Origin: Litorihabitans aurantiacus
GTDB taxonomy: Bacteria > Actinomycetota > Actinomycetes > Actinomycetales > Beutenbergiaceae
Assembly: GCF_030161595.1 (NCBI RefSeq)
Contig: NZ_BSUM01000001.1
Span: 3,410,001 to 3,474,000 of the forward strand
DNA: 64,000 nucleotides
Direction: 5' to 3'
The notes below the pieces were generated by a model. That model was not told the origin of the DNA, ran no database searches, and saw only the letters and a program-made list of their open reading frames with translations. Each line of letters begins with the position of its first letter. Within the stretch, counting starts at the first letter, position 1. The translations under genes were made by a program, and so were the position numbers. This document shows, piece by piece, positions 2,590 through 7,526 of this stretch.

Positions 2590-5500
2590 ATGCCCTCACC
2601 CCGCCCACCAGCCCTGCGACCCGGCTCCCTGCGCCGGACCGTCGGACTGTTCGCCCTCAGCGCCCTCGTGGGGGTGCCGCCCTCGCCGGCGGTGCGCTCC
2701 CCGCGGCGGCGGACCCGATCGATCCGGGCACGCTGCCTCCCCAGGAGCCCGGTGTCACCCTGCGCACGTTCCAGATGCCGCCCGGCATGAACGCGCTCTG
2801 CACGCTCCGCGGCGGTACGACGCCGAACGTCGACAAGCTCGTGCCGCAGATCGACCTCACCACGAACGACGACTTCGGCCTCGGGGACAACTTCCTCACG
2901 CACGCTCGCGCCAACCTGACCGTGGCGGAGGGCGGGGCCTACGAGTTCCGGATCACGAGCGACGACGGCTCCCGCCTCACCATCGGTGACGAGGTCGTGC
3001 TCGACAACGACGGCCCGCAGGACACGACGTCCGTCGAGGGAACGGTCCAGCTCGAGGCGGGCGTCCACGACCTGTTCGTCGAGCACTTCGACGGCACCAA
3101 CAACCAGCGGCTCCTGCTCGAGTGGCGCCCGCCGGGTGCGGCGAGCTTCGCCGTCGTGCCCTCGAGCGTGCTCAGCACGGAGGCCGACGTGGTGCGCGTG
3201 ACCGCGCCCGGCACGAAGTACTGCGAGGGCGCCGAGGACACCGCGGGTGACGGCCTGCAGCTCGACTCCGTCAACCCGAACTACACGCTGACCGACCTGC
3301 GCCCCGCCGACTTCGAGCCGAAGGTCTCCGGCCTCGCGTTCGACGACGCCGACCGCCTGCTGGTCTCCACGACCGGCTCGGTGAGCTCCGGCGGCTGGGT
3401 GCCCGACGCCGAGCCCGGCGAGGTCTTCGCCCTCGACAACGTGCTGGGCGAGACGAGCGCGGCCGAGGTCGAGTACACGAAGATCGCCAGCGACCTGTTC
3501 AACCCCATGGGGATCGCCTACGTCGACGGGAAGCTCTACGCCTCGGAGCGCGACGGTCTGACCGAGCTCAGCGACCTCGACGGCGACGGCTTCTACGAGG
3601 ACCACCGCACGTTCGCGACCTGGCCGGACGGCGGCAACTTCCACGAGTTCGCGTTCGGCCTGATCCACGACGAGGAGAACTTCTACGTCAACCTCTCGGT
3701 CGCGATCAACAACGGCGGCGCGTCCACCAACCCGCAGCCGGCCGCCGACCGCGGCACCACGCTGCGCATCGACCGTGAGACCGGCGAGGTCGAGTACGTC
3801 GCCGGTGGTCTGCGCACCCCGAACGGGATCGGCTTCGGGCCCGAGAACGAGATCTTCGCGATGGACAACCAGGGCGACTGGCTGCCGAGCTCGAAGCTCG
3901 TGCACGTGAAGGACGGCCGGTTCTTCAACCACTACACCAACCCCGCCGGCCGCTTCGACGATCAGCCGGTGACGCCGCCGGCGCTCTGGCTGCCGCAGAA
4001 CGACATCAGCAACTCGCCCAGCACACCGATCACGCTGGAGGCGGGCCCGTTCGCGGGTCAGATGCTCTTCGGCGACGTCACCTACGGCGGCCTGCAGCGC
4101 GCGTTCCTCGAGGAGGTCGACGGCGAGTACCAGGGTGCGGCGTTCCGCCACACCGCGGGCCTCGAGGTCGGCGCCAACCGCGTCATCACCGGTCCCGACG
4201 GCGCGCTGTACGTCGGCGGCACGGGTGAGGGCGGCAACTGGGGCGAGTCGGGCAAGCTGCGCTACGGCCTGCAGAAGCTGACCCCGGTCAACGCCGACAC
4301 GTTCGACATGACCTCGGTGAGCGTGGTCGAGGGCGGGTTCGAGATCACCTACACCGAGCCGATCTCGACCGAGACGGCGGAGTCGATCGCGGACGCCTAC
4401 CGCGCCACGCAGTGGCGCTACGTCCCGACGGCCGGCTACGGCGGTCCGAAGGTCGACGAGACCGGGCTGGTGGTGAGCGACGCCGTCGTCTCGGAGGACC
4501 GCACGAAGGTGACGCTGCAGCTGGACGGTCTCGAGCCCGGTCACGTGGTGCACCTGCGCTCCCCGCGGCCGTTCGAGTCCGAGTCGGGCAAGGAGCTGTG
4601 GAGCACCGAGGCCTGGTACACGCTCAACTCGCTGCCGGGCTACGAGGCGCCGGCCGACCGCGGCTGGTACGAGGCGGAGTACGCCGCGCTGCGCGGCAAC
4701 GCCGGCCTGGACACCGAGCACAACGGGTACTCGGGTGCCGGGTTCGTGGACAACTTCGGCGACGTCGGCACGGGTGTGACGTTCACGGTGAACGCCGAGG
4801 AGGCGGGCACCCAGCCGCTCCACCTGCGCTACGCCAACGGCCCCAACCCGTTCGTGGGTGACAAGGACGTCTCGCTGTACGTCAACGGCGAGCGCATCGG
4901 CCCCTGGACGCTGCCGCCCACGGGCGCCTGGAACCAGTGGGGCACGGCGACGACGGAGGTCGCGCTCGAGGCGGGCGCGAACGCCGTCTCGATCCGTCAC
5001 GACGAGGGCGACGACGGCCACGTCAACCTGGACCTGCTCCAGGTCGGCGACGGCGGCGACATCTGCCTGCCGGCCGAGACCGAGGACGGCTACCGCAGCC
5101 TCTTCGACGGCACCCTCGCGACGTTCGCGGACTGGAACATGGCCGGCCCCGGGTCGTTCGGACGCCAGGCCGACTGCAGCCTCCGCACCAGCGGCGGCAT
5201 GGGCCTGCTGTGGCACGGCGAGGAGCTCGGTGAGTACAGCCTCAAGCTCGACTGGAAGCTGACGAAGGACGACAACGGCGGCATCTTCGTCGGGTTCCCC
5301 GACCCGGGCACCGACCCGTGGGTCGCGGTCAACCAGGGCTACGAGATCCAGATCGACGCGACGGACGAGGACGACCGCACCACCGGCGCGATCTACACCT
5401 TCCAGGGCGCCGACCTCGCGGCCGTCGAGGCCTCGCTGAACCCCGTCGGCGAGTGGAACGCGTACGAGATCGTCGTGCAGGACCAGACGATCCAGGTCTA

Positions 5501-7526
5501 CCTCAACGGCACGCAGGTCAACGACTTCACCAGCACCGACCCGGCGCGCGACCTCGCGCAGGGCTTCATCGGGATGCAGAACCACGGCGCGGGCGAGGCG
5601 GTCAACTACCGCAACGTCCGCGTGATGGACCTCGAGGACGCCGTGACGGTCACGGCCGAGCCGGTGACGTTCACCGACGAGGACGGGACCGAGGCCGACA
5701 CCTTCACCGTCCCCGCGGTCGAGGGTGTGGAGTACCTGGTCGACGGCGACGTCGTCGCCGCCGGCACGTACCCGGGTGCGGGCACGGTCACGGTGACGGC
5801 GCGGGCGCTCGCGGGCTTCGTGCTCGCGGGGGAGACGGAGTGGTCGTACACCTTCGACGCGACGACGCCGGAGCCCGAGCCCGTGCTGATCCCGGCGGAG
5901 CAGGTCTCCATGGGGATGTTCTCGCTGAGCGCCTGGGCGAACCAGGACGGACTCCCGGTGGTCCTGGACCGTCTGGAGACCATCGGGTTCGAGAACATCG
6001 AGCCCTTCGGCGGGACGCTGCGCGGCTTCTCGGCGGAGCAGTTCCGCGCGATGGCCGACTCTTACGGCCTGGACGTGCCGTCGTCGCACTACGACGTGGG
6101 TGAGGCGACGTTCGCGAACACCCTGGCGTACGTGAAGACGCTGGGTCAGCGGTACGTGGGTTCGGGTGGCTTCGCGGCCCCCGGCATCGGCTCGCTGGAG
6201 AACACGCTGACGACGGCGGACACGATGGACCGCCTGGGTGCGCTGTCGGTGGCGAACGGGACCGGGAAGTTCTTCGGCCACAACCACGCCGGCGAGTTCA
6301 CCACGATGTACGAGTACAACGGCGAGATGACCTCGGCCTGGGAGATCCTCGTGGCCGAGACCGACCCCGAGCTCGTCACCTTCCAGGTCGACGTGGCCTG
6401 GGCGACGCACGCCGGGATCGACGTGCCCGAGCTGCTCGAGGAGCACGGCGACCGGATCGACCTGCTGCACATCAAGGACGCCACGGGTCTCGTGACCCAG
6501 CCGCGCCCGACGTTCGTCAACCTCGGCGAGGGTGACGTGCCGCTCCAGGAGATCCTGGCCGAGGCCGTCGAGCAGGACGTCGACCTGTACGTGATGGAGT
6601 ACGACGGCTCCCCGGCCAACGACTCGTTCTCCGCCGAGGGCTTCGAGTACCTCACCGGCCTCGAGGCCGGCGAGGCGAACCCGACGCCGGAGCCGTACAC
6701 GGTCACCCCGGCGGCGGTCACCGCCACCGACGTGGCCGGGACGACGGGTGACACCTACACCGTCCCGAGCTCGGCCGGCGTGCAGTACCTCGTGGGCGAC
6801 GCGGTCGTGGCGGCCGGGACCTACCCCGCCACCGGGACCGTCACCGTCACGGCTCGCGCTGCCACGGGGTACGCCCTGGCGCAGGGTGCGACGGCGGAGT
6901 GGACGTTCACGTTCGACGCCGCGGGCGACTTCGTGGACGTGCCGGAGGGGATGCTCTTCTTCGAGGACATCCAGTGGATGTTCGAGAACGGGATCTCGAC
7001 GGGGTGGGAGACGGCTGACGGTCGCGAGTACCGTCCGCTGCAGCCGATCGCGCGTGATGCGATGGCGGCGTTCCTGTACCGCCAGGCGAACTCGCCCGCG
7101 TTCACGGCGCCGACGGTCTCGCCGTTCAGCGACGTGGCCACGGACAACCAGTTCTACAAGGAGATCGCGTGGCTGGCCGACCAGGACATCTCAACCGGGT
7201 GGGACAACGGGGACGGGACGTTCTCCTTCCGTCCGCTGGAGCCGATCAACCGTGACGCGATGGCGGCGTTCCTGTACCGGATGGCCGACAGCCCCGAGTT
7301 CGAGGCGCCGGCGGTCTCGCCGTTCACGGATCTGACTCCGTCCACGCAGTTCTACTCGGAGATCACGTGGTTGGCCTCGGAGGGGATCACCACGGGGTGG
7401 CTCGGGAACGACGGGACGGCGATCTACCGTCCGGTGAACCCGATCAACCGTGATGCGATGGCGGCGTTCCTGCACCGCTACGACGACGCGGGCTTCAGCA
7501 ACGTCGGCGGCAGCACCGACAGCTGA
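2590..7526 (+). CDS. Giant secreted multidomain carbohydrate protein with SLH-like anchor (frameshift in signal peptide)
   Basis: The product is about 1,645 aa. The signal peptide begins at 2590 (MPSPRPPALRPG, then LFALSALVG) in one frame; its cleavage region (ALAGGALPAAAD) and the whole mature protein are one frame back. A missing G in the run at 2670-2674 explains this. Domains by nucleotide position: PA14 (2775-3150), sorbosone/glucose dehydrogenase-like beta-propeller (3300-4290), CBM6/35-like domain (4650-5050), DUF1080 3-keto-disaccharide hydrolase fold (5085-5630), Ig-like repeat (5640-5870), xylose-isomerase-like TIM barrel with FFGHNHAGEF (5890-6670), second Ig-like repeat (6690-6920), and three S-layer-homology-like repeats sharing ISTGW and NRDAMAAFLYR motifs (6925-7500). 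Domain calls come from reading the sequence. The combination suggests oxidation and hydrolysis of glycosides at the cell surface; the substrate is unknown. Confidence 0.8.

Follow-up and report, generated by a model that had tools for sequence, protein, structure and literature searches.

The breakdown of glycosides by oxidation, elimination and hydration has been recognised only recently and from separate enzymes. Such a pathway was reportedly described by Nasseri et al. in Nature in 2024 for Alistipes and B. thetaiotaomicron, with AL1 and BT1 as the lyases and AL2 and BT2 as the hydratases, and we take the PDB entries for these four proteins to belong to that study. The oxidoreductase of the Bacteroidota pathway is of the Gfo/Idh/MocA type. 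In Agrobacterium, the Mn-dependent TIM-barrel beta-eliminase AtOGE is a separate enzyme whose operon also provides a flavin GlycDH, a second putative sugar phosphate isomerase as the hydratase and a Gfo oxidoreductase as the final reductase (PMC10628242). LacABC is a separate membrane-bound lactose 3-dehydrogenase that acts alongside DUF1080, a family of which one member is reported as an endo-xanthanase/lichenase (PMC9007349).

Here, we analysed a 64,000-nt stretch of the Litorihabitans aurantiacus genome, referred to as the window (GCF_030161595.1, contig NZ_BSUM01000001.1, positions 3,410,001-3,474,000, forward strand), in which an open reading frame of 1583 amino acids (2775-7526, + strand) carries on one chain PA14, a six-bladed propeller, CBM35/6, DUF1080, a TIM barrel and SLH repeats. 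When aligned, six relatives, some of them partial, are 51-74% identical to the window protein, which puts this stack of domains far beyond chance. The features are as follows, with Pfam values for the 1583-aa ORF.

2590-2673, + strand: start codon with signal peptide, read in another frame than the remainder (86% match over 29 residues to the N-terminus of ortholog L009)
2670-2674, + strand: GGGGG run, site of a one-base frameshift (probable assembly error)
2829-3155, + strand: PA14 domain, residues 19-127 (Pfam, E 3e-14)
3222-4289, + strand: propeller with sugar-dehydrogenase fold, DUF7133-like, residues 150-505 (profile and AlphaFold2 model)
4290-4658, + strand: module conserved downstream of the propeller, residues 506-628, without a family assignment (alignment of relatives)
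4668-5045, + strand: carbohydrate-binding module, CBM35/CBM6 (Pfam, E 2e-12 and 6e-11, respectively)
5088-5624, + strand: DUF1080 (3keto-disac_hyd, PF06439), 3-keto-2-hydroxyglucal hydratase-like (Pfam, E 3.7e-36, 125.4 bits against a cut-off of 26.8; fold match)
5640-5882, + strand: first linker repeat, residues 956-1036 (61% identity with the second)
5889-6674, + strand: xylose-isomerase-like TIM barrel (AP_endonuc_2), 3-keto-glycoside 1,2-lyase-like (Pfam, E 3.9e-10; fold match; site residues)
6687-6929, + strand: second linker repeat, residues 1305-1385 (61% identity with the first)
6930-7484, + strand: S-layer homology repeats, surface anchor (Pfam, E 5e-9, 36.4 bits against a cut-off of 20.8)

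The PA14, CBM, DUF1080, TIM-barrel and SLH modules that a first-pass annotation had read from the sequence were thus all recovered by Pfam HMM search. Its reading of the TIM barrel as an isomerase gives way to that of a lyase, as the closest characterised folds are the 3-keto-beta-glucopyranoside-1,2-lyases AL1 (Z 24.6), BT1 (Z 24.3) and AtOGE (Z 23.1) and the five metal-binding and catalytic residues of AtOGE are retained. The top folds also include 3OBE (Z 24.5) and 3L23 (Z 23.6), which come from structural genomics and bear the title sugar phosphate isomerase/epimerase, and after this group the list continues with the sugar isomerase 7VPF (Z 20.1) and IolE (Z 19.8). The isomerase reading was rejected on two grounds: the characterised lyases stand 3-5 Z units above 7VPF and IolE, and the NCBIfam IolE profile scores 26 bits against a cut-off of 290. 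In a phmmer alignment, His132, His134, Asp163, His189 and Glu233 of AtOGE correspond to His1169, His1171, Asp1206, His1232 and Glu1275, so that the His/Asp/His/Glu metal ligands and the catalytic His are all present; the five residues are invariant in 39 of 39 relatives. Both fold and sequence place the domain in one family with AtOGE, AL1 and BT1, and its reading as a domain most like the Mn-dependent 3-keto-glycoside beta-eliminases/1,2-lyases appears well supported. A TIM-barrel isomerase outside the cell had been called unusual, but extracellular TIM barrels of this subfamily are not rare here, since many relatives carry one fused to or adjoining propeller proteins.

For DUF1080, the view of a classical hydrolase gave way to a ranking by fold with the glucal hydratases, the matches including 9FBE (Z 19.7), AL2 (8V31, Z 18.6) and BT2 (8TDA, Z 17.9). 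The domain contains a QNHG motif whose His937 (codon 5583-5585) is invariant in 18 of 18 aligned rows and which, by numbering and alignment, would be the equivalent of BT H275; the H275N variant is deficient in hydration (PMC13273386). A role most like that of the 3-keto-2-hydroxyglucal hydratase (or eliminase/hydratase) partner seems well supported by these comparisons.

The proposed sorbosone-dehydrogenase-like propeller was borne out by the fold of the AlphaFold2 model but gave no Pfam match above cut-off in the window protein, where PF07995 (GSDH) likewise found none. The model has its best fold matches among PQQ sugar dehydrogenases (Z 26.5-28.7), with SMP30 at Z 24.4, and shares the fold of the PQQ-dependent glucose/sorbosone dehydrogenases (2ISM, 3DAS, 1CQ1, 6JT5 and others), from which it differs in being only 13-19% identical over the aligned part and in apparently lacking the PQQ-carboxylate residues. 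A profile search of the PDB with the propeller returned mostly designed 'Pizza' propellers and, weakly, 2ISM; 21 of 22 family members match DUF7133 at E<=10 (best 1e-10). With 52-77% identity in its core in the named loci, against 43-66% for PA14, the propeller ranks with the best-conserved regions of the protein and contains the invariant motifs NFHEF, GLRTP, DNQG and GDVTYGG as well as His290, Arg347, Gln366 and Gly367, which are invariant in 37 of 37 sequences. In sGDH, the PQQ carboxylates are presumably bound by Lys377, Arg406 and Arg408, which a motif alignment, as a low-confidence residue map, places at Thr436, Gly466 and Asn468. The hhalign probability was 2.7% for the propeller against GSDH paralogs (A3-A5) and 19% for the propeller (A3) against a canonical GSDH set of only four sequences that passed the motif filter, from the ORFs of 30 loci, and the alignments disagree on the position of the Arg motif. 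On this low-confidence alignment canonical PQQ-carboxylate binding looks lost, and a correspondence of propeller His and Arg positions with the catalytic His and Arg of GSDH is plausible at the level of a weak alignment. TIGR02109 (pqqE) had no match above cut-off in the genome; there was no positive control for this search, and because all 14 control genomes also match only below cut-off, weak pqqE matches carry no meaning.

The locus resembles the AL/BT pathway in that a TIM-barrel 1,2-lyase and a DUF1080 3-keto-2-hydroxyglucal hydratase are among its top fold matches, and departs from it in that lyase and hydratase belong to a single polypeptide, which also bears binding modules and an S-layer anchor, and in having a propeller as the candidate oxidant. 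With AtOGE it shares the five site residues of the TIM barrel, and the loci of some relatives share with the AtOGE operon a Gfo oxidoreductase, which is the final reductase there and is predicted to be so in these relatives; unlike that operon with its separate enzymes and flavin GlycDH, the window protein has its lyase fused. The likeness to LacABC and DUF1080 would be that 3-oxidation takes place outside the cytosol and is linked to a DUF1080 protein that is secreted, although the DUF1080 chain of that system has neither propeller nor TIM module. Altogether, the window protein seems to represent a version of the oxidation-elimination-hydration pathway that is fused and lies outside the cell, and we lean, by a modest degree of belief, towards a secreted, S-layer-anchored enzyme with predicted activity in non-hydrolytic glycoside cleavage. 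CBM35 and PA14 would hold the glycan while the propeller may oxidise the C3 hydroxyl of a glycosyl unit. In the TIM barrel, His1169, Asp1206, His1232 and Glu1275 would bind the metal and His1171 would act as the acid-base, and both site and fold strongly suggest that the aglycone is eliminated from the 3-keto-glycoside to give a 2-hydroxy-3-keto-glycal, which DUF1080 would very probably hydrate to the free 3-keto-sugar. In relatives, a ribose-type ABC importer may take up the keto-sugar and a cytosolic Gfo/Idh/MocA oxidoreductase may reduce it.

If this is true, the fused, surface-anchored version and the linked actinobacterial propeller-DUF1080 family would extend the pathway to the outside of the cell in Gram-positives, the propeller would be a candidate for a new type of oxidant, and hundreds of actinobacterial proteins would gain a testable function. 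A literature search returned no report of this fusion, which is no proof of novelty since the Nature 2024 paper and an Angew 2024 paper were both outside that search.

At least 556 related stretches were found, and NCBIfam had no family above cut-off in the five proteins scanned. Propeller and DUF1080 are paired in all 80 named relatives, most of which lack the TIM domain (fused in 4 of 80 loci). Among TIM proteins at least 45% alike, 15 of 22 in the survey are fused to or beside a GSDH/propeller, against 4 of 20 distant-TIM controls (p 0.002, indicative only, as related genomes are not independent); with the fused proteins set aside, 7 of 14 stand-alone TIM genes are linked against the same 4 of 20 (p 0.13, not significant). 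For six of the 22, the stretch that was fetched contains no propeller, and L142, with weak propeller matches on the opposite strand only, was scored as not linked; the survey leaves out the window's own genus, genomes not drawn and the contig-end matches G149 C30 and C8. In sister loci, the TIM lyase either forms one protein with a GSDH propeller or is encoded next to one, in some cases near sugar ABC importers and Gfo/Idh/MocA oxidoreductases, and one or both of these gene types adjoin such genes at the genome's own paralog 3, in Gracilibacillus and in G040. These neighbours were taken from loci read directly, the neighbourhood cluster counts among the 80 named loci being lower bounds; next to the window gene itself, reading of the neighbouring genes revealed no pathway partners, which, like the rarity of the fused TIM domain among the relatives, speaks against the cleavage enzyme proposed above. 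The linkage of propeller, DUF1080 and TIM barrel supports one pathway, and the combination of lyase and hydratase with a sugar-dehydrogenase-like propeller on one chain suggests an unusual route of extracellular sugar breakdown. Of the earlier proposal that an oxidising and a keto-processing module share one surface-attached chain, the union of a sugar-dehydrogenase fold with 3-keto-glycoside modules stands, linked in many relatives, while oxidation by the propeller is unproven.

A single extracellular polypeptide that carries out three of the four cleavage steps (C3 oxidation, beta-elimination and hydration), its propeller using a non-canonical cofactor or electron acceptor, is possible and is put forward tentatively; it would amount to an 'oxidative glycosidase' that is complete in itself and exposed on the S-layer. 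Somewhat unlikely, in our estimate, is that only lyase and hydratase are active, with the propeller as a non-redox sugar-binding module or scaffold and the 3-keto-glycosides supplied by other enzymes or organisms. The apparent loss of the expected PQQ-carboxylate residues in the window propeller and in the GSDH paralogs, the lack of a pqqE match above cut-off in the genome and a fold that by itself also fits lactonases such as SMP30 would agree with such a scaffold, but the strong conservation of its core relative to most of the chain, its many invariant polar residues and the pairing with DUF1080 in every one of the 80 relatives kept argue against it. We consider improbable a conventional glycan-binding hydrolase, in which DUF1080 would be an endo-glycosidase and the TIM barrel an isomerase or inosose dehydratase: the Thermogutta xanthanase, a DUF1080 protein, is reported as an endo-glycosidase and the family takes in proposed 3-keto-disaccharide hydrolases (PMC9007349), and the TIM barrel has its weak IolE match far under the cut-off, but the site equals that of AtOGE at five of five positions, the characterised lyases rank above IolE and 7VPF, and DUF1080 ranks with the glucal hydratases.

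The state of the 5' end, finally, raises the question of decay of the window copy as a pseudogene. The ATG at 2590 from which a single polypeptide had been read to 7526 is exact, but its frame differs from that of 2775-7526, and the signal peptide MPSPRPPALRPGSLRRTVGLFALSALVG joins the remaining protein only via a one-base shift within GGGGG (2670-2674). In G002 and G001, the sister gene is open straight through the corresponding point with no break in the frame. Other single-base shifts in the same assembly, one in the Gfo gene adjoining paralog 3 and one in paralog 2, where it falls in or close to a run of five Cs, look like homopolymer error, and the shift in the window gene is probably an assembly error as well. 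A pseudogene would account for a signal peptide that is out of frame in the assembled sequence, but it is very unlikely given these comparable shifts elsewhere in the assembly and a reading frame that is open over 1583 codons with its active-site residues intact.

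The domain stack proposed in the first-pass annotation for the gene at about 2590-7526 (plus strand) is real by Pfam searches of its 1583-aa ORF (2775-7526, used for residue numbers) and an AlphaFold2 model of its propeller. The stack would work like an oxidation-elimination-hydration pathway with a putative oxidation step, and its lyase and hydratase modules side with this pathway in every sequence or fold comparison run; the propeller falls below the profile cut-off of the PQQ sugar dehydrogenases (PF07995).

Domains of the 1583-aa ORF (Pfam; plus strand)
Residues 19-127, plus strand: PA14
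Residues 150-505, plus strand: propeller (by model), no Pfam match above cut-off
Residues 506-628 (window 4290-4658), plus strand: highly conserved module that separates the propeller from CBM35; no family name
Residues 632-757, plus strand: CBM35/CBM6
Residues 772-950, plus strand: PF06439/DUF1080, E 3.7e-36
Residues 1065-1280, plus strand: AP_endonuc_2 (TIM barrel), E 3.9e-10
Ending at residue 1563, plus strand: SLH

Two copies of a linker repeat (61% identity) also occur in the chain, and the SLH end matches about 50 places in the genome, so that SLH surface display is common in this organism.

The TIM barrel had been read as a sugar isomerase, but its fold and site point to 3-keto-glycoside lyases. 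A structural model of residues 762-1303 (pLDDT 82.9; pTM 0.52, so that relative domain placement is not to be trusted) matched the 3-keto-beta-glucopyranoside-1,2-lyases AL1 (8TCR/8TCD, Z 24.6) and BT1 (8TCT, 24.3), the structural-genomics entries 3OBE (24.5) and 3L23 (23.6), and the Agrobacterium beta-eliminase AtOGE (8BVK, 23.1), followed by a row at 20.1. AtOGE has His132, Asp163, His189 and, weakly, Glu233 as metal ligands and His134 as the catalytic residue (PMC10628242). Taken in sequence order, all of these align (phmmer; numbering counted by hand) with His1169, His1171, Asp1206, His1232 and Glu1275, which are invariant in 39/39 aligned sequences, a set biased to close relatives (E below 1e-50, plus the window). 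The site is thus predicted to be of the lyase type, an assignment strong by homology and site.

Equally strong on these two grounds is the assignment of DUF1080 as a hydratase. Its best structural matches were 9FBE/8RR2, titled 3-keto-glycoside eliminase/hydratase, together with the 3-keto-2-hydroxyglucal hydratases 8V31 and 8TDA. The H275N variant of a B. thetaiotaomicron lyase, which we infer to be the DUF1080 protein of 8RR2/9FBE, is described as hydration-deficient (PMC13273386). Entry numbering combined with the chain index places H275 on the QDHG His and hence on His937 of QNHG in the window, invariant in 18/18 rows.

For the propeller, the proposed dehydrogenase stood as a fold and failed at the PF07995 cut-off; 21/22 family members matched DUF7133 at E up to 10. 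The AlphaFold2 model (residues 8-628, mean pLDDT 83.4) has PQQ or putative sugar dehydrogenases as top matches (2ISM, Z 28.7; 3A9G, 28.1; 3DAS, 27.3; 7CDY, 27.1; 2G8S, 26.5), with SMP30 trailing at 24.4. Within the NFHEF, GLRTP, DNQG and GDVTYGG motifs, the residues tested do not vary (37/37 sequences). Against the residues of soluble glucose dehydrogenase that we take as reference (His144, Arg228, Gln-Gly, Lys377 and Arg406/Arg408), motif order and placement relative to the strands are compatible with His144, Arg228 and Gln-Gly, but Thr436, Gly466 and Asn468 occupy the expected Lys377 and Arg406/Arg408 positions in a hand map; profile alignments here are weak. Counterparts of Arg406/Arg408 are apparently missing as well from GSDH (PF07995-type) paralogs of the same system. 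We therefore take the sugar-dehydrogenase-type fold as shown by the model and a redox role as likely; this evidence does not allow the propeller to be called a PQQ dehydrogenase.

The annotated ATG at 2590 is the natural start, but its frame differs from that of the ORF, which runs open from ATG 2775 to the stop at 7526 (1583 codons; 1677 with upstream extension). By tblastn, the N-terminus of the sister gene (L009) matches the window in two frames that join at a GGGGG run (2670-2674). At the corresponding point the sister genes of two congeneric genomes (G001 and G002) pass uninterrupted from signal peptide to PA14; that of G001 is broken further downstream. Single-base shifts are also required in paralog 2 (at or near a CCCCC run), whose GSDH portion is out of frame, and in a Gfo/Idh/MocA gene of the same assembly. 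These frame changes are likely homopolymer errors of the assembly rather than decay. The three one-base sites lie at window 2670-2674, in L038/L185 near C1:421.3 kb and at L184 ~2838-2853, and two of the three have 5-base G or C runs at or near them.

A scan of the named genomes, seeded with patterns of this family, found at least 556 related stretches, and the best-matching 80 were kept, which biases the set toward the PA14-propeller-CBM35-DUF1080 architecture. Among these 80, PA14 and propeller followed by a CBM35-like module occur in all, and so does DUF1080 next (77 by a profile built for this analysis, some weakly, and three by Pfam), with a TIM domain on the same chain in only four, of which two are truncated at a contig end. 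Most hosts are actinobacteria (Georgenia, Promicromonospora, Cellulosimicrobium, Streptomyces, Micromonospora and others), and Gracilibacillus also occurs; in a phylum sample, 8/296 genomes, the window's own included, carry the propeller at E<=1e-30. G002 encodes PA14-propeller-CBM-DUF1080-TIM-TIM-SLH, and G001 a similar architecture by BLAST. SLH repeats and two TIM domains are carried by two paralogs in the window's genome, of which paralog 3 combines a GSDH propeller with PKD. One relative (L015:1-4641, minus strand) has four CBM35 copies and lacks a TIM domain.

A 3-keto-sugar released outside the cell would be taken up by an ABC importer and reduced by a Gfo/Idh/MocA oxidoreductase, which fits the neighbours of several relatives. 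Next to paralog 3, and on its strand, are genes for an ABC ATPase, a permease (BPD_transp_2), a binding protein (Peripla_BP_4) and an oxidoreductase of the Gfo/Idh/MocA type. Upstream of the PA14-propeller-DUF1080 gene of Gracilibacillus lacisalsi lie an ABC ATPase, a TIM isomerase-like gene, a Gfo/Idh/MocA gene and two genes that by eye encode a permease and a binding protein; in genome G040 the TIM gene follows genes for a binding protein and a Gfo/Idh/MocA oxidoreductase. By reading, the window gene is preceded by molybdate-transport-like genes and followed by flavin-enzyme-like ones, with no importer or Gfo genes as neighbours.

The survey set comprised 22 TIM proteins that are at least 45% alike to that of the window: eight are fused to a GSDH/propeller gene and seven adjoin one. 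Of 20 distant TIM genes, four adjoin such a gene. Outside the genus, a separate TIM gene can directly follow a GSDH-PKD-CBM6 gene. Genome G084 holds four propeller/TIM proteins within ~35 kb (L134, L135; G084:C1:341000-380999): GSDH-TIM, GSDH-TIM-DUF1080, ThuA-GSDH-PKD-CBM6-DUF1349-TIM (2396 aa) and PA14-propeller-CBM35-DUF1080-TIM. At L141:10982-15499, a ThuA-F5/8C-GSDH-PKD-DUF1080 protein is encoded immediately downstream of a TIM gene, which suggests that ThuA takes part in this chemistry.
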